Positions 1,205 to 31,845 of a stretch of 45,306 bases of DNA are shown piece after piece. Both the position numbers and the translations under genes were made by a program. The stretch lies in IMG/VR virus record IMGVR_UViG_3300050119_000128, positions 1-45,306 of that record. One strand, written 5' to 3'. Positions within the stretch are counted from its first letter, which is position 1; each line of letters starts with the position of its first letter. This DNA is from a virus. Under the pieces are notes generated by a model that worked only from the letters and a program-made list of their open reading frames with translations, was not told the DNA's origin and did no database searches.

Positions 1205-1238
1205 ACAAAAAGCCGTCATCGCCCGAAGGGCGATGGCT
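1205..1238 (-). terminator. Probable leftward rho-independent terminator
   Basis: Bases 1217-1224 (catcgccc) pair perfectly with 1228-1235 around a GAA loop, flanked by agcc/gct. Read on the minus strand the stem is followed by TTTTTG, the normal layout of an intrinsic terminator. On the plus strand there is no T-run after the stem. It sits just upstream of the rightward promoter at 1238-1266, so it would stop leftward transcripts before the secreted-protein gene. Confidence 0.5.
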
Positions 1239-1266
1239 TGCTCGACTCTGGCAAATCGGATTAAAT
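1238..1266 (+). promoter_or_regulatory. Sigma-70-like promoter for the structured RNA locus
   Basis: TTGCTC at 1238-1243, a 17-base spacer and TTAAAT at 1261-1266. The predicted start, about 1272-1274, falls exactly at the left edge of the highly structured region that begins with the first target repeat (1277-1295). The position supports function; the hexamers themselves are only moderate matches to consensus. Confidence 0.5.
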
Positions 1267-1272
1267 GTCCGT

Positions 1273-1525
1273 GGGTGTAGAAACCCGGACCTGAGATCAG
1301 GTGGCTGAGCCCGTTGGCGCGGGCAGCTACCGAGATTCTGCCGCTTAGGCAGAAACTTGCGCGCTGCTTGGCGGCAGCGCCGACCTGGCCGATTATGGCC
1401 GGGAGGGCGCTGCCATGTCCAGGGCGAAAGCCTAAAAGCGCGCCACCTGTCTCTCAGGCAGGTTTCTACCTCCCGGCTGCCGGCCGCCCCGGCAAGGGCC
1501 GTAGAAAGCCAAACCTGAGATTTCC
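1273..1525 (+). ncRNA. Structured antisense/attenuator RNA resembling P4 cI / P1 C4
   Basis: A 250-base non-coding stretch dense in hairpins: 1289-1302 (5 bp), 1309-1324 (gcccg/cgggc), 1336-1354 (perfect 7 bp, 5-base loop), 1373-1381 with 1406-1414 (perfect 9 bp), 1478-1494 (6 bp). Bases 1361-1367 can instead pair with 1374-1380, giving two mutually exclusive folds. A two-part sequence, GTAGAAA(CC) then CCTGAG, occurs at 1277-1295 and again at 1501-1519. Its complement, CTCAGG then GGTTTCTAC, lies between them at 1453-1469. P4 cI and P1 c4 leaders have exactly this target, antisense, target order. The second target ends 8 bases before the ATG at 1528 and would cover its ribosome-binding site. 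The ends of the mature RNA cannot be set from sequence; 1330-1470 is the likely core. Confidence 0.6.
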
Positions 1526-1527
1526 AC

Positions 1528-2736
1528 ATGAACTCACAGCCTCAATCCGGCATCCGGTGCGACAATGGCGCGCCCGCGCAACCGCGCGGGCCGTCAATCG
1601 ATATGCCGATGCTGTCACTTGTTGCGTCCAAGTCCCCCGTCGCACCGGTCATCGAGGACCCCGAAACCGTCGCTCTGCTCGCCAAGGTAGATCGCTACAT
1701 GCGGTCGATTGAAGCGGAGCACACGGCCGACGGAGATCTTGTCGCCTTGGCGCTCCAATTCGTCCCGCTGGCCGTCACGGCCGATCGTGCGGCCGCGTTG
1801 GCAAGCAGCCTCGACGAAGCATGCGCCTCCGATCTTGCGTTCGAGCTGCAATTTATAGCGGCAAAGGCGGCCGAGACCGCCACATTCGACGCCGTCCGTT
1901 CCATCGCCGCCGCCATCGTCGCTACGCCGGCAAAGACGCTGGCGGGATTGGTTGCCAAGGCCGTGGTCGCGGCGTGGGCGCACGGCTGCGATCCGGTTTC
2001 CGATGATGGCAATGGACTGAGCGACAGCGCCGCTATGGCGCACATCGTCCATGACCTGCTTGTACTCGCCGCCGCCGGCGCGTCCATCGATCACCGCGCG
2101 CTACCGCCTGGCCCGGATCAAAAACTGATGCAGCTGCGGCGCACCTTTGATCAGATGGTGGCGATCTCCCCACGCATCGCGCGCGAAGCCGACGCACGCT
2201 ATGCGGCGCTGGTGGCGTCGCTGCCCCTGCCGGACGGGCTGCGCTTTCGGCTTGACGACGCGCCGATGCTCAAGCGCCTCGGCCTCGACTTTCCGGCCGG
2301 CGGTGTTTATGCGGACAATTATAAAGGCCGGCTGTCGACGATTGCGCCAAAGCCTTCCGATGAATATCGGCGAGCGCGCGAGATTATCGACGCCATGGTG
2401 GCACGGCGTGTCGCTCACGATCAAGCGCTTGCGGATTCTGGCGTTCAAGGGCCGGACGAGGCATTAGAGAGCGTGCTCGCCCCCCTCGAAAGCGTTCGTG
2501 ACGAAATGGCCGAGCTAATCGCTTATACTTTGCAAGGCGTCGCCGCCAAAGCCGTCGCCGCATGCACAGCTTATGACGGTCAAATAATCATCGATGATCC
2601 CGACCAGGGACTTGTTCAATCGCTATTGGCCGATCTGATCGCGCTGGCGCCGGCGCCGGTCTATGCCGGACCCTCGTCGGCGGGTACATCTGGCGGCGCC
2701 GGTGGTTTGTCAGAGGCGCCCTCGCGCTCGGCGTAG
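1528..2736 (+). CDS. Hypothetical protein downstream of the C4-like RNA
   Basis: A 402-residue protein with no recognised domain. It is alanine-rich and predicted mostly helical, with no signal peptide or membrane span. The N-terminal 30 residues and the C-terminal 30 (rich in G, S, A and P) look disordered. The ATG at 1528 follows the second antisense target at 1501-1519, and GAG within that repeat is the only ribosome-binding candidate, so translation should be under the control of the RNA upstream. By position it corresponds to icd/ant of P1 or kil/eta of P4, that is an antirepressor, division inhibitor or replication switch. That role is inference from position only; the sequence shows no similarity I can see. 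A strong hairpin at 2754-2777 separates it from the AlpA-like gene. Confidence 0.7.
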   Translation: MNSQPQSGIRCDNGAPAQPRGPSIDMPMLSLVASKSPVAPVIEDPETVALLAKVDRYMRSIEAEHTADGDLVALALQFVPLAVTADRAAALASSLDEACASDLAFELQFIAAKAAETATFDAVRSIAAAIVATPAKTLAGLVAKAVVAAWAHGCDPVSDDGNGLSDSAAMAHIVHDLLVLAAAGASIDHRALPPGPDQKLMQLRRTFDQMVAISPRIAREADARYAALVASLPLPDGLRFRLDDAPMLKRLGLDFPAGGVYADNYKGRLSTIAPKPSDEYRRAREIIDAMVARRVAHDQALADSGVQGPDEALESVLAPLESVRDEMAELIAYTLQGVAAKAVAACTAYDGQIIIDDPDQGLVQSLLADLIALAPAPVYAGPSSAGTSGGAGGLSEAPSRSA

Positions 2737-2753
2737 TGCCAAGGACTGAGTTT

Positions 2754-2777
2754 GCGGCCGGCCCACGGGCCGGCCGC
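2754..2777 (+). other. GC-rich hairpin between genes
   Basis: An 11-bp perfect stem (gcggccggccc with gggccggccgc) with a two-base gap at the centre. No T-run follows, so it is not a classical terminator. It may weaken read-through from the 402-aa gene into the excision/integration genes or protect the upstream message. Confidence 0.4.
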
Positions 2778-2810
2778 TCGTTCGCGATCTCTACCGGTAA
2801 GGCACCCCCG

Positions 2811-3074
2811 ATGAAACAACTCCCATATCCGCCGCCATGGCAGGACGCCTCGACGCTATGCGCGCATATCTGTATCAGCGAGGGCACGCTCGACAATTGG
2901 GTGCGGCTCGGCCTGTTGCCGCCACCCAAGCCGGTCGGCGGCAAGCGCATGTGGAAGTGGACGGAAGTCGAGCGCTATCTTGAAAACGAGGGCGGCCTGG
3001 TGCCATCCTCGCCGGGCGCAGAGGCAGAGAGGATCATGCGTGCGACCCGTGAGGCCGCAGGACGCCGCGATTGA
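2811..3074 (+). CDS. AlpA/MerR-like helix-turn-helix protein
   Basis: An 87-residue DNA-binding protein. Residues about 10-55 form a winged helix-turn-helix of the AlpA/excisionase kind: an alpha-helical TLCAHICISEGTLDNW, then a turn and the wing RLGLLPPPKPVGGKRMWKW, then TEVERYLE. The frame is open further upstream to 2736, but that extension is proline/glycine-rich and covers the hairpin at 2754-2777, so the ATG at 2811 starting MKQLPYPPPW is preferred. Its place between the RNA-regulated gene and the excisionase/integrase pair suggests control of integrase expression or excision, as AlpA does for CP4-57. It may also act as a recombination directionality factor. Confidence 0.75.
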   Translation: MKQLPYPPPWQDASTLCAHICISEGTLDNWVRLGLLPPPKPVGGKRMWKWTEVERYLENEGGLVPSSPGAEAERIMRATREAAGRRD

Positions 3075-3129: not shown

Positions 3130-3531
3130 ATGAGCGCCGCACGCATTCCGCCGGCCGATGATCGCCCGATCGATCGTGACGCCCCTTTGCTGCTTTCGGT
3201 TGCCGCGGCGCGCGCTTTTCCCGACGGCTCGATGACCAAAAGCGGCCTGCGCCGCGAGGCCAAGCGCGGCCGGCTCGACATCGAGCGCATCGCCGGAAAA
3301 GACTACACCAGCCTGGCCGCCATCGACCGCATGAGGGAACTATGCCGGCAAAGCGTAAAGGCGCCCACCTCTGGCTGCGCCGGGAACGAATCGGACGCGA
3401 TGGCACGCGCCGCAAGGCCGTCTGGATCATCCGCGACGGCGACAGCAGACACAGCACGGGATGCGCTGAATCAAACATTGGCGGCGCTGAAACGGCGCTC
3501 AAAAAGTATCTCGCCGACAAACACACGATAA
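3130..3531 (+). CDS. Excisionase-like DNA-binding protein
   Basis: A 133-residue protein starting at an ATG with a good site (GGAGG seven bases upstream). Residues about 20-75 contain LLLSVAAARAFPDGSMTKSGLRREAKRGRLDIERIAGKDY split over a helix-turn-helix typical of small phage excisionase/AlpA-type proteins. The C-terminal half is basic and serine/threonine-rich and probably disordered. Its last 190 bases overlap the start of the integrase gene in another frame. An excisionase lying directly before, and overlapping, the integrase suggests co-transcription and translational coupling. The frame runs open further upstream, but the strong ribosome-binding site fixes this start. Confidence 0.75.
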   Translation: MSAARIPPADDRPIDRDAPLLLSVAAARAFPDGSMTKSGLRREAKRGRLDIERIAGKDYTSLAAIDRMRELCRQSVKAPTSGCAGNESDAMARAARPSGSSATATADTARDALNQTLAALKRRSKSISPTNTR

Positions 3532-4475
3532 CCGCGCGGGCGGTGTCGCGTCGTCCCGCTGGCATCCCAATCGCGGATGTCCTGAATATCTATGCCCGCG
3601 ACAAGGCACCCGAGCACGCGCGGCTGGCCGAGACGGTGCGGCGCATCGAGGCGCTGCGCGATTATTTCGGCACGGCCACGCTTTCCACCATCAACGGACA
3701 CGCCTGCCGCGCCTATGTCCAGGCGCGGGGGGAAGGCGCCGGGCGGCGCGAACTGGAAGAACTGCGCGCGGCGATCAACCATCACCGCCGCGAAGGCCTG
3801 TGCTCTGAGATCGTCGAGGTCGTGTTGCCGCCGCGCGGGGCGCCGCGCGAACGCTGGCTGAGCCGCGCCGAGGCCGCCCGTTTGATAAAAGCGGCCTGGC
3901 GCTACCATGAACGCCAGGACGGCGCCCCAAGCGACAGGCGCCCTCGCCAGCACGTCGCCCGCTTCGCTCTGATCGCGCTCTATACCGGCTCGCGCGCCGG
4001 CGTCATCTGCGAGGCGGCACTCGGCCGCCCGCAACCGGGCCGCGGCTGGATCGACCTCGATCGCGGCGTGTTCTATCGCCGGGCGCCGGGCAAACGCGAG
4101 AGCAAGAAGCGGGCGCCGCCGGTGCCCTTGCCGCCGTCTCTGCTGGCGCATCTGCGGCGCTGGCACCGCAGCGGCCAGGCCTATGCCGTGGAATGGAACG
4201 GCGCCCCGGTCGTTTCACTGCGCAAGGCCTTCGCCGCGGCCGTCAAGGACGCAGGTCTCGGACTGGAGGTGACGCCGCATGTGCTGCGCCATACGGCGGC
4301 GACCTGGCTCATGCAGGCCGGCGTCGATATGTGGCAGGTCGCCGGCTTCCTCGGCATGACGGTGGAAATGATCTCGCAACGCTACGGCCATCACCATCCC
4401 GGCCATCTTGCCGGCGCGGTCGAGGCGTTCTCAACGCATCGGGCCAAGCGAGCCTCGATTGCGCGCCGCGCTTGA
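3342..4475 (+). CDS. int: Tyrosine-type site-specific integrase
   Basis: A 377-residue integrase, a normal length for phage tyrosine recombinases. It would catalyse integration between attP and the host site and, with an excisionase, excision. The N-terminal third is basic, followed by a SAM-like core-binding region (about 80-150) and the catalytic domain. Visible catalytic elements are R218 in YTGSRAGV, the HVLRH box at 313-317 and the nucleophile Y348 in QRYGHHHP. The usual LGH/LGW position reads LGM (M339), which is unusual, though the adjacent GHHHP may compensate. The start has GAGGGA six bases upstream. It overlaps the excisionase-like gene by 190 bases. It is the last gene of the leftmost module, and the phage genes follow in the same direction, so attP is likely in the gap at 4476-4618. 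I saw no tRNA there. Confidence 0.93.
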   Translation: MPAKRKGAHLWLRRERIGRDGTRRKAVWIIRDGDSRHSTGCAESNIGGAETALKKYLADKHTITARAVSRRPAGIPIADVLNIYARDKAPEHARLAETVRRIEALRDYFGTATLSTINGHACRAYVQARGEGAGRRELEELRAAINHHRREGLCSEIVEVVLPPRGAPRERWLSRAEAARLIKAAWRYHERQDGAPSDRRPRQHVARFALIALYTGSRAGVICEAALGRPQPGRGWIDLDRGVFYRRAPGKRESKKRAPPVPLPPSLLAHLRRWHRSGQAYAVEWNGAPVVSLRKAFAAAVKDAGLGLEVTPHVLRHTAATWLMQAGVDMWQVAGFLGMTVEMISQRYGHHHPGHLAGAVEAFSTHRAKRASIARRA

Positions 4476-5502: not shown

Positions 5503-5806
5503 CCCCCCCTCTTGTGTGCGATTCGGAGTTGACGTATCGGTGATAATACCGACAGTAAAAAAAAGCTCCGGTCGCTCACGCGGCGCGGGGCTTTCGAATT
5601 TTAGGCCGCGCCATTTGCGGCTGAGCGGTGTCCGTGGAGCACGCCGCCGTGTCGGCAGCCGAGACTCTGGCGCGGCGCGGCGTGAAAACCCTTATTTTAT
5701 CGGCAAAATGTCGCTGGGTCGGTGGTATGGCTGATTTTCTTTGATTATGGCGCTGGCTTTTGCGACAAGGTGCACATCATGAGATGATGCCTAAGTTCGG
5801 CACGCC
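5503..5806 (+). repeat. Tandem repeat copy 1 (~314-bp unit)
   Basis: First of three head-to-tail copies. Each opens with a run of C then CTCTTG.GTGCGATTCGG, followed by AGTTGACG, a terminator-like hairpin (here agctccg 5564-5570 with cggggct 5586-5592), AATTTTAGGCCGCG, and a 150-base tail. That tail holds a possible 38-codon frame from GTG 5628 to TGA 5742 (contains AAETLARRGVKTLIL). Copy 1 differs from copies 2 and 3 in the hairpin and has an A8 run before it. Its tail (5631-5790) is nearly identical to 20158-20311. No known insertion sequence features (transposase or terminal inverted repeats) are present. Confidence 0.85.
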
Positions 5807-6120
5807 GATAAAGACCCCCCCCTCTTGCGTGCGATTCGGAGTTGACGTAGGGGTCACAATACCACGACAGGAAAAGAGGCCCCGCTCGCTCACGTAGCGC
5901 GGGGCTTTCGAATTTTAGGCCGCGCCATTTGCGGCTGAGCGGTGTCCGTGGAGCACGCCGCCGTGTCGGCAGCCGAGACTCTGGCGCGGCGCGGCGTGAA
6001 AACCCTTATTTTATCGGCACAATGCGGCTGGGTGCGGTACGGCGCTGTTTTTCTTTGATTATGCGGCTGGCTTTTGCGACAAGGTGCGCGTTATGAGATG
6101 ATGCCTAAGTTCGGCACGCC
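5807..6120 (+). repeat. Tandem repeat copy 2
   Basis: Starts GATAAAGACC and repeats exactly 314 bases later at 6121. It contains the hairpin 5879-5908 and the equivalent 38-codon frame (GTG 5942 to TGA 6056). That frame keeps the same length and stop as copy 1 although its last third differs (ending CGWVRYGAVFL rather than CRWVGGMADFL). Near the right end TTGCGA (6074-6079), 17 bases, GATGAT (6097-6102) could be a weak promoter reading into copy 3. Confidence 0.85.
5879..5908 (+). terminator. Terminator-like hairpin in repeat copy 2
   Basis: Stem gccccgc (5879-5885) with gcggggc (5899-5905), with a further gct/agc inside, followed by TTTCG and then AATTTT. The T-run is short, so termination may be partial. 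The C-rich CCTCTT at 5821-5826 can alternatively pair with AAGAGG just before the stem, which would compete with terminator formation. Confidence 0.5.
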
Positions 6121-6256
6121 GATAAAGACCCCCCCCTCTTGCGTGCGATTCGGAGTTGACGTAGGGGTAACAATACCACGACAGGAAAAGAGGCCCCGCT
6201 CGCTCACGTAGCGCGGGGCTTTCGAATTTTAGGCCGCGTCATTGCGCCGAGGCCTG
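6121..6256 (+). repeat. Tandem repeat copy 3 (truncated) and a remnant of copy 4
   Basis: Copy 3 matches copy 2 through the terminator-like hairpin (6193-6222) and AATTTTAGGCCGCG, then breaks off at about 6247. A further GACCCCCCCCTCTTGCG at 6257-6273 is the first 17 bases of a fourth unit before the sequence becomes unique. The stepwise truncation suggests unequal recombination. Confidence 0.8.
6193..6222 (+). terminator. Terminator-like hairpin in repeat copy 3
   Basis: Same stem as in copy 2 (gccccgc 6193-6199 with gcggggc 6213-6219, then TTTCG). If the weak promoter at 6074-6102 is active, the transcript from about 6109 to 6222 would be a discrete small RNA of roughly 115 bases. Confidence 0.45.
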
Positions 6257-12162: not shown

Positions 12163-12233
12163 ATGGCGGCGGCAGTAGCCATGCGTGATCCCATCGACAC
12201 TGTGAGGCGTCCTTTCATTCAGGATCGATAATC

Positions 12234-13556
12234 ATGACAAAAATCGTCCGCACAAAATCGAAGGCATGCGGCGGCATCACCAAAGCCGAGAAAATGTGCA
12301 TGGATGACCATGCAAAGCTTTGGATTGACCGCGCGTTGCGGACTCTGCCGATCGAGATGGAGAAGATCGTTCCGGCGATCGATGGATTATACAGCGTTTC
12401 AGGGTTAAAGCCGCCGCGTATCGTCATTGTGCCATCGCCGCTGGTGATGGCCTTCGCCTATGGCGCCGCGGCGGCAATCTGGTATCGACGAAAGAATGGT
12501 GACGCGGCCACTGACGCGGCCACTGACGCGGCCACTGACGCGGCCACTGACGCGGCCACCAGATCGGCCACTTACGCGGCCACTTACGCGGCCACTGACG
12601 CGGCCACCAGATCGGCCACCAGATCGGCCACTTACGCGGCCACTGACGCGGCCACTTACGCGGCCACCAGATCGGCCACTTACGCGGCCACTTACGCGGC
12701 CACCAGATCGGCCACTTACGCGGCCACTGACGCGGCCACTTACGCGGCCACCAGATCGGCCACTTACGCGGCCACTTACGCGGCCACCAGATCGGCCACT
12801 TACGCGGCCACTGACGCGGCCATGGATAGCCCGGAACAACAGGCGGCTGCGGCTTGCGTTGAGATGGCTGGCGATCTCGGCATTCGTTGTGCCGCTCGAT
12901 GGGGCAACGTCTATCAAGGCGGCAATATGTGGGCCGCCTTTGATTGCTATCTCACAGCAAGCCGCGACATTCTTGGGTTGCGGTTCGAAGAACACGCGGC
13001 TTATGCGCATTGGGAACAGGCCGCGATTCACGGCGGCTTTCGCGTTCTGCATGAAGAATTCTGCATGGTCTCCGATTTTCCTGAGACTTTGCTCGTCGAT
13101 GATCAAAATCGTCCGCACAGCGAGACCGGCCCGTCGCACCGCTGGCGCGATGGCTGGTCGCTTTATCATTGGCACGGCGTCGGTGTTCCGGCCCATTGGA
13201 TCGAGCTGCGGGACAAACTCGATCCTATCGAGGTTCTCAAGGCGACCAATGTCGAGCAGCGCGCTGCCGGTGCGGCGATCATCGGATGGCCACGCATGGC
13301 GCAGAAGCTCGACCGCAAGATCGTCGACGGCGATCCTGATACCGACATCGGCGCGCTGATCGAACTGACATTGCCTGGCCTGCCAGAGCCAGGCCGCTTC
13401 CTGCAAGCCGTTTGCCCGCGCAACGGCACGATCGTGGAAGGCGTGCCGCGTGTCAGCGACATCGATGGCCTGCCGATCGAGACCGTCATGGCTGCCCAGG
13501 CCTGGCGCGATGGCCTTCCTGTCAGTGAGTACCAGCACCCGCTCTACCGCACTTGA
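12234..13556 (+). CDS. DUF6745-like protein with a 4-residue repeat tract
   Basis: A 440-residue protein in three parts. Residues 1-89 include IVIVPSPLVMAFAYGAAAAIW. Residues 90-197 consist of 27 consecutive tetrapeptides (DAAT, YAAT, RSAT), encoded by 12-bp units at 12501-12824. Residues 198-440 match the DUF6745 pattern: the GNMWAAFDCYLTASRD block, the central HGGFRVLHEEFCMVSDFP, and SETGPSHRWRDGWSLYHWHG. DUF6745 proteins often have Ala-rich AAxDAA tracts at this place, here in an unusual threonine-rich form. Upstream TTCAGGATCGATA is shared with the leader at 20361. The following small gene is a frequent partner of this family. Function unknown. Confidence 0.75.
   Translation: MTKIVRTKSKACGGITKAEKMCMDDHAKLWIDRALRTLPIEMEKIVPAIDGLYSVSGLKPPRIVIVPSPLVMAFAYGAAAAIWYRRKNGDAATDAATDAATDAATDAATRSATYAATYAATDAATRSATRSATYAATDAATYAATRSATYAATYAATRSATYAATDAATYAATRSATYAATYAATRSATYAATDAAMDSPEQQAAAACVEMAGDLGIRCAARWGNVYQGGNMWAAFDCYLTASRDILGLRFEEHAAYAHWEQAAIHGGFRVLHEEFCMVSDFPETLLVDDQNRPHSETGPSHRWRDGWSLYHWHGVGVPAHWIELRDKLDPIEVLKATNVEQRAAGAAIIGWPRMAQKLDRKIVDGDPDTDIGALIELTLPGLPEPGRFLQAVCPRNGTIVEGVPRVSDIDGLPIETVMAAQAWRDGLPVSEYQHPLYRT
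12501..12824 (+). repeat. 12-bp coding minisatellite, 27 units
   Basis: Perfect-period tandem array of three 12-base variants: GACGCGGCCACT, TACGCGGCCACT or TACGCGGCCACC, and AGATCGGCCACT or AGATCGGCCACC. Unit order by first residue is DDDDD R YY D RR Y D Y R YY R Y D Y R YY R Y D. The second half shows a higher-order 84-bp period. Because 12 is a multiple of 3, length changes keep the gene in frame. The array leaves several other frames open on both strands, which explains long false frames there. Confidence 0.95.
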
Positions 13557-31062: not shown

Positions 31063-31845
31063 ATGTCGCTGTCGCGCACCGCACTCCGTCTTACGGCGAT
31101 GGAAGCGCTGCGACCGTCGGCGATCGTGTTGGCCGGAACGGCAGGCCCGTGGCCGACCTTGGCGGCGCAATACGTCTTCGACAGTCGTCTCGATCCGATC
31201 GGCGATCTTAAGGACGACGAAAGGCGCCCGGTTGTCGTCATCTATACCGACGACGATAGCGGCGATGCGGGGCAGAAGGCCGGCGGCCCGCCGTTCAAGC
31301 GCGACGTTGATCTTATGTTCGAAATCTCGGTCGCCGCGATGGTGACCGACGACGGCGCTACCTACGCGCCTGGCACCCCGCTCACCGACGGAGAGTTGGA
31401 AGCCTCGCTCGATCTGTTGGAAGCGCAAATCCGCTTTTCGTTGATGTACGCGCCGTGCGGCGTGCTGTGGCGCAATCTCACCGGCCGCCGCGTCACCAGC
31501 ATTCATTCGGCGCCGAAACGCACATCGGAAGAAAGCGCGCGGCTCGCCATGCGCACGCTGCGCCTGAAGACGACGATCCCAGACGATGATTATGTCGCCG
31601 CCCCGGCGACCGCCCTCACCGGAAACGATCGGCTGCCGGAGCCGCTGAAAAGCGTCATCGCCGCTCTGGCGAGTGGCAGCTATGGCGCCGCGCTTGGAGC
31701 CGGTCTTGCGCCGCCGGCGCCGCAGATGCCGGTGGCGACACCGTTGCAGACGGTCACTTTCGATATGCAGCCTAGCGCGCCGCCGGCGCCGCTCGATGAC
31801 ACCAAGCCGCAGATCAATTTCGAAGCCGACAATTTGCAGGGCTGA
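31063..31845 (+). CDS. Hypothetical tail protein, possibly tail terminator
   Basis: A 260-residue protein between neck and sheath. Its N-terminal 190 residues (LRPSAIVLAGTAGPWPT, DDERRPVVVIYTDD, EISVAAMVTDD) have an alpha/beta pattern like small tail-terminator or Mu gp37-type proteins. The proline-rich tail ends in INFEADNLQG. The family is not sure. It overlaps the next gene by TGATG. Confidence 0.6.
   Translation: MSLSRTALRLTAMEALRPSAIVLAGTAGPWPTLAAQYVFDSRLDPIGDLKDDERRPVVVIYTDDDSGDAGQKAGGPPFKRDVDLMFEISVAAMVTDDGATYAPGTPLTDGELEASLDLLEAQIRFSLMYAPCGVLWRNLTGRRVTSIHSAPKRTSEESARLAMRTLRLKTTIPDDDYVAAPATALTGNDRLPEPLKSVIAALASGSYGAALGAGLAPPAPQMPVATPLQTVTFDMQPSAPPAPLDDTKPQINFEADNLQG

Follow-up and report, generated by a model that had tools for sequence, protein, structure and literature searches.

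The C4 RNA of bacteriophage P1 acts in trans. In phage P4 the CI RNA, a C4-family RNA by Rfam (74.9 bits), acts through premature transcription termination (PMC4825925), and the isrK-STnc1160-orf45-anrP region of Gifsy-1, where IsrK is a separate leader RNA that switches on translation of the downstream antirepressor, has been likened by its authors to P4 seqA/CI (PMC4825925). The RNA family sRNA-Xcc1 is treated in the literature as trans-acting, as virulence-linked, or as an element 5' of symE with "a divergent regulatory mechanism" (PMC12189769, PMC12444791, PMC8780938). In Xcc it gives a Northern band of ~100 nt, measures 88 nt by end mapping, and has trans targets that are computer predictions (PMC2996969); a relative in E. 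coli EDL933 is an abundant non-coding RNA represented by 40,293 reads (PMC5331693). Rfam assigns sRNA-Xcc1 to no clan, and no statement that sRNA-Xcc1 is C4-type was found in the papers that our literature search covered.

Here, we analyzed a locus in IMG/VR virus record IMGVR_UViG_3300050119_000128, positions 1-45,306 (the window, meaning this whole stretch of 45,306 nucleotides, which is possibly incomplete or a fragment). Taking all evidence together, we are confident that an antisense RNA of C4 type, from the sRNA-Xcc1 branch, is encoded here; it would be processed and silence the operon that begins with a 402-aa open reading frame (ORF).

By gene content the window phage is temperate and contractile-tailed, with genes for terminase gpA, portal, major head protein, tail sheath and baseplate, and also for a helicase, a D5_N (primase-type) protein and methyltransferases. 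Behind the antisense RNA, on the same (+) strand, follow the 402-aa ORF (1528-2736), which is presumed to be the first regulated gene, an HTH_17/MerR-like protein that is excisionase/regulator-like by family match (2736-3074, start probably ATG 2811), a 72-aa ORF that is kept beside related integrases (3130-3345), and a tyrosine integrase (3342-4475; PF00589, 1.5e-10; phrog_1, 1.6e-33) at a distance of 1.8 kb from the locus. Relatives of this integrase are mostly found in Hyphomicrobiales, and the host of the phage is probably a member of that order. The loci of these relatives (L002-L033) contained no such RNA, and the RNA therefore does not travel with the integrase. The 402-aa protein matched no Pfam or PHROG family, including the antirepressor families. 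Searches of viral, phage and genome collections, and of 249 genomes from the Methylocystis order, gave no relatives of it, and its AlphaFold2 model, made from the single sequence, had a pLDDT of 38, which is too low for use. No antirepressor family (as in P1) or replication gene family (as in P4) was matched among the ORFs behind the RNA. A preliminary description of the window had remarked on the lack of a CI-type repressor in 45 kb, and this holds, as no repressor or antirepressor family was identified among 101 ORFs and the main genes of this perhaps incomplete record.

Three further features of the window were recorded. A C-terminal piece of a second tyrosine integrase lies at the left end (53-343), besides the integrase at 3342-4475, and suggests a neighbouring or older element. 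A 314-bp unit is repeated 2.4 times with 92% matches at 5503-6243, in a stretch without clear genes, and is possibly a replication origin or regulatory repeat. Lastly, a 12/48-bp repeat at 12500-12822 encodes a repetitive protein stretch within a 440-aa ORF (12234-13556) that has a DUF6745 match.

The locus is defined by two boxes that occur in three places. The preliminary description had reported a two-part motif, GTAGAAA followed by CCTGAG, present twice with its complement in between, and this proved exact: across the 45,306 bases, the pattern GTAGAAAN{0,10}CCTGAG is matched at 1277-1295 (+), 1453-1469 (-) and 1501-1519 (+) and nowhere else, and 100 dinucleotide shuffles gave no match. The first target consists of a1 (GTAGAAACC, 1277-1285, +) and b1 (CCTGAGA, 1290-1296, +), the antisense of b' (TCTCAGG, 1452-1458, +) and a' (GGTTTCTAC, 1461-1469, +), and the second target of a2 (GTAGAAA, 1501-1507, +) and b2 (CCTGAGA, 1514-1520, +). 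With 7-mers, 5000 shuffles of 1238-1540 produced no two-box triple, and 60 shuffles of the entire window produced one. Two such 7-mer triples are present in the unshuffled window; the other, at 31706-31724, is a GC-rich pair and probably due to chance. As had been claimed, the second target sits at the start codon, with ATG 1528 lying 7 nt past b2. Apart from the only SD-like GAG, which b2 covers, no clear ribosome site precedes this ATG.

The run of hairpins described earlier was borne out by folding, with 1268-1527 reaching a z-score of -5.9 relative to shuffles and none of 200 shuffles folding as well. The promoter-like pair TTGCTC-17-TTAAAT (1238-1266, +) is present literally as described, at a position matched in relatives; however, it is weak by consensus (7 of 12 letters, counted manually) and was not reported on the + strand by a consensus-based promoter scan. 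It lies 39 nt from a1, and comparable TTG elements were counted manually at 38 and 39 nt in the related loci L249 and L251 (see below). Among 59 relatives, TTGAC was found 27-47 nt 5' of a1 in 34, versus 18% of random 60-mers.

Between the two targets lies a predicted self-contained three-way junction (about 1396-1481, +; fold -43.1 kcal/mol), and the preliminary reading of an antisense RNA between two targets stands, although its location is not 1330-1470 as first proposed. Its outer stem is formed by 1398-1406 and 1469-1477, hairpin 1 (1407-1443, +) carries an ATGTCCA...CTAAAAG loop and a GGC-GAAA-GCC tip, and hairpin 2 (1445-1463, +), placed by both the fold and covariance model R3 (see below), presents b', with a' mostly within the junction linker. 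The same hairpin-1 loop defines a subtype that also includes L072, L078, L079 and L081.

Assignment of this RNA to a family differed from what had been anticipated. No Rfam family matched the window at gathering thresholds. The Rfam C4 search named in the preliminary description placed the RNA at 17.6 bits against a cut-off of 45 (RF01695; E 0.67-1.2), and it came closer to sRNA-Xcc1 (RF02221), which gave the top Rfam score in the locus with 23.9 bits against a cut-off of 53 and no match in a search of the whole record. Both alignments are full length and in one register, that of sRNA-Xcc1 spanning 87 positions, but such sub-threshold scores prove nothing alone because other, chance families score in between. 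More informative were two covariance models built from sRNA-Xcc1 RNAs with the window left out. Model R2 (24 members) found 1396-1481 with 29.6 bits and E=3.3e-5, the runner-up in the 45 kb having E=0.16, and model R3 (68 relatives) found the same interval with 34.5 bits and E=4.8e-6, followed by a runner-up at 16.2 bits and E=0.12; calibration was short, which makes these E-values rough and leaves the bit scores unaffected. Rfam cut-offs thus admit the window RNA to neither C4 nor sRNA-Xcc1, and its significant scores with R2 and R3 place it with the sRNA-Xcc1-type RNAs in a wider sense. A DNA pattern made from the window's boxes alone and run over 2.9 million viral contigs returned a single contig, L056, in which the match falls on an sRNA-Xcc1 RNA (71.8 bits) that is flanked on either side by these same boxes. 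This match provides independent support, as the pattern knew nothing of sRNA-Xcc1.

Related loci in which targets and antisense fail to change together had been named beforehand as refuting the reading; the opposite was observed. A pattern for the ATGTCCA hairpin subtype identified one close relative, L249 (IMGVR_UViG_3300037424_000824), with 83% identity to the window over 250 nt. The two loci agree in every copy of box a, whereas box b (b1/b'/b2) reads CCTGAGA/TCTCAGG/CCTGAGA in the window and CCGAAGA/TCTTCGG/CCGAAGA in L249, i.e., both targets and the antisense are altered together. A pair at the tip of hairpin 1 also differs on both sides (GGCGAAAGCC / GGGGAAACCC) and is compensated. Computed duplex energies follow the same division: the window antisense reaches -25.2 and -20.3 kcal/mol with its own targets and -18.4 and -14.8 kcal/mol with those of L249, and the L249 antisense reaches -24.3 and -21.1 kcal/mol with its own and -19.8 and -14.9 kcal/mol with those of the window, an advantage for own targets of about 4.5 to 7 kcal/mol over the other's target of the same kind. 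L249 resembles the window in box a and hairpin-1 type, and differs in that b is altered in three places, the locus stands behind a tail gene, and the contig ends before any integrase could show. Its ORF shares AIxAxPxxTLxGLxxKA with the window's 402-aa ORF, a weak similarity (two-sequence E 0.007). The triple change at high identity was seen in this one close relative. In a second, more distant one, L251, b1 is CACAAGG and b' is CCTTGTG, and it was not counted because its b2 pairs only with wobble and a bulge. The other pattern matches (L248, L250, L252 and L253) were chance occurrences without the RNA.

The same arrangement was then sought in sRNA-Xcc1 at large, using viral RNAs gathered via the conserved hairpin (69 non-redundant, the window not among them). 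Two-box targets flanked the RNA on both sides in 65 of 69, compared to 39% of mismatched antisense/flank pairs; the small variation of the a box accounts for part of this high background. Stretches with 12 or more paired letters were present downstream in 60 of 69 (16% of mismatched pairs) and upstream in 62 of 69 (25%), and the b box alone, with at least 6 letters no more than 32 nt from the first ATG, in 49 of 62 versus 7.2% of mismatched pairs. The second target lies mostly 6-13 nt 5' of the start codon. In 68 members, 97% of the pairs in the proposed structure (outer stem, hairpin 1, tip and hairpin 2) are standard, and all 21 of 21 pairs show compensatory changes. This alignment was itself fitted to the structure, unlike a smaller one; sliding the partners by one to three columns lowers the paired share to 41-48%. 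Across this wider family, whole-duplex energies separate cognate from other pairs only modestly, the cognate pair ranking first in 6 of 66 rows; the common box a and GC content are the probable reason. The argument for specificity therefore relies on the exact boxes. The locus has these features of the C4-type plan: an antisense b'+a' between a1b1 and a2b2, a second target placed where translation of the following gene begins, a three-way junction whose hairpin presents b' and whose linker holds a', and targets and antisense that change together, in L249 and across the family.

Among the first downstream genes of 37 relatives, antirepressors were represented by pRha (7), KilA-N (7), P22_AR_C (5), Bro-N (3), AntA (2), P22_AR_N (2) and ORF6N (1), and in Haemophilus phage Aaphi23 the sRNA-Xcc1 RNA lies immediately 5' of ant. 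Hyphomicrobiales prophages often have a small ORF first after the RNA, as icd in P1, and the order in L238 (RNA, small ORF, a protein that is pRha-like by eye, and an integrase-like ORF) resembles that of the window. With 65 of 69 RNAs showing the plan and many lying 5' of antirepressor genes, sRNA-Xcc1 looks like a second branch of C4-type switches. We lean, with some reserve, towards a broader proposal: that Rfam sRNA-Xcc1 as a whole is an unrecognised second C4/CI-type branch of phages and other mobile elements, with a near-constant box a and a b word that serves as a specificity code changing in three places at once, and that here a diverged ATGTCCA subtype controls an excision/integration operon and not an antirepressor.

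Other arrangements were encountered during this survey. Many small alphaproteobacterial genomes carry numerous sRNA-Xcc1-like RNAs (L061-L082; e.g., 13 copies in G350). Many of these RNAs are preceded by a1b1 but lack a clear a2b2 and are followed by ordinary genes, as multi-copy stand-alone units. Contig L240 contains a C4 RNA and an sRNA-Xcc1 RNA (543-627; 12217-12304), both above cut-off and no more than 12 kb apart, perhaps two switches in one prophage region. In Vibrio phage VPBES (L254), the RNA, a small ORF and a DNA-binding protein form a reverse-oriented, moron-like cassette among tail genes.

Following the C4 plan, a transcript from near 1273 would comprise a1b1, the structured RNA (about 1396-1481), a2b2 and the 402-aa ORF, from which the structured RNA would be cut and accumulate as a stable small RNA of ~85 nt; that the window phage produces it is inferred from relatives that accumulate as RNAs (PMC2996969, PMC5331693). 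The b' loop and a' linker would bind a2b2 of such transcripts, and as b2 lies immediately 5' of the ATG, this pairing would block translation of the ORF. Through polarity of the P4 type, transcription of the genes for the HTH protein, the 72-aa ORF and the integrase would probably be lost as well. The upstream a1b1 would be a second target, acting either as an early-termination site (as seqA in P4) or as part of a leader RNA that counteracts silencing (as IsrK in Gifsy-1). P1 and 20 of 59 relatives have a T-run hairpin that separates b1 from the RNA, an arrangement suggestive of termination control. The corresponding leader hairpin of the window (1298-1331, +) is not followed by a T-run, unlike in P1 and some relatives, and any termination there would thus be of another kind. 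Silencing would extend to incoming phages that carry the same b word and spare those with a different one, so that the locus would probably contribute to immunity and keep the lysogenic phage from excising.

The elements of the locus could be read differently. All boxes are located within one presumed transcript, and the 260-nt fold pairs a1b1 with a'b' in cis across 180 nt, which would suit a leader switch in which a1b1 and a2b2 compete for a'b' without any small RNA acting in trans. We consider this improbable, as the RNA part is a self-contained three-way junction with stems that covary across the family, and as C4 of P1 is established, and annotated, as trans-acting. Relatives also accumulate as RNAs of ~88 nt (PMC2996969; PMC5331693), which speaks against a purely cis-acting leader. 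A toxin-antitoxin-like device would employ the same pairing mechanism as the preferred reading for another purpose, namely silencing of a harmful 402-aa protein. Xanthomonas integrons, where the cassette of widest distribution has sRNA-Xcc1 5' of symE (PMC12444791), might be a case of this kind and are in line with it, as is the failure of the 402-aa protein to match a Pfam or PHROG family. However, phage genes with a known domain downstream of these RNAs are mainly antirepressors, and the window ORF is followed by xis-like and int genes, and we regard this purpose as rather unlikely.

Much less weight can be given to a host-directed small RNA as envisaged in the original sRNA-Xcc1 papers. Chen et al. 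2011, by its title as cited in PMC12444791, describes the family as trans-acting and virulence-linked, but the partners that the b box matches lie next to its own gene and vary together with it, and the trans targets are only computer-predicted (PMC2996969), making such a role very unlikely for this locus. Chance repeats, or DNA sites such as integrase arm sites, might be suspected in GC-rich DNA that is rich in hairpins and this close to an integrase gene; against the box statistics, the covariance-model matches, the joint b change with stem compensation and the loci of related integrases, which have no such element, this explanation retains a negligible probability.

Control by a C4-type antisense RNA would mean that an RNA family treated as trans-acting or virulence-linked in recent papers has a concrete, cis-encoded way of acting, and would make the target of a member predictable from its own sequence. 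It would likely extend RNA-based control to many phages, including an alphaproteobacterial one without a recognisable repressor, and the b words could be read as possible immunity groups. If the operon of the 402-aa protein, xis-like and int genes is indeed the target, an antisense immunity RNA would be linked directly to the choice between the integrated and excised states.

Overall, the preliminary interpretation as a P4-cI/P1-c4-like locus is upheld in its plan, by structure, sRNA-Xcc1 homology and the co-change in L249, and was revised with regard to the Rfam C4 cut-off, which the RNA missed, and the RNA location. Its further proposals, a likely immunity switch and an anti-immunity or lytic role for the 402-aa protein, are conjectural, this protein matching no antirepressor family and being followed by the excisionase-like HTH protein and the integrase. 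In P1, the annotation of c4/icd-ant (C4, RF01695; leader c4-a1b1, RF03163) lists the same succession of promoter, a1b1, antisense RNA, a2b2 and start codon, with b2 ending 10 nt before the start of icd, compared to 7 nt for the window ORF. The C4 model, too, has b' in a hairpin and places a' within the junction linker. In contrast to P1, the window has a shorter outer stem, a long hairpin 1, other a and b words and no antirepressor family behind the RNA; model R3 likewise found none of P1, P4 and four alphaproteobacterial C4 loci. P4 CI (seqA, seqB and seqC) shares with the window an antisense between upstream and downstream targets and a nearby excisionase/transcriptional regulator, but P4 is a satellite with a primase operon. 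Gifsy-1 resembles the window by description, with a leader RNA, a stable downstream RNA, a small ORF and an antirepressor (PMC4825925), the last being a family for which the window gave no match. Closer to the window RNA is sRNA-Xcc1 (RF02221), with an outer stem of 9-10 bp, an internal-looped hairpin 1 with a tetraloop tip, hairpin 2 and linker, and, in the RNA of L056, the same box a; the hairpin-1 loop is ATGTCCA/CTAAAAG in the window versus AATACAA/GGGGAATA in sRNA-Xcc1. The hairpin with a T-run after b1 (GCGG...GCGGTATTTTTGTG) is very similar in P1 (L260, about 777-815) and in the sRNA-Xcc1 leaders of L243, L244 and L247, which may hint at a common origin of C4 and sRNA-Xcc1.
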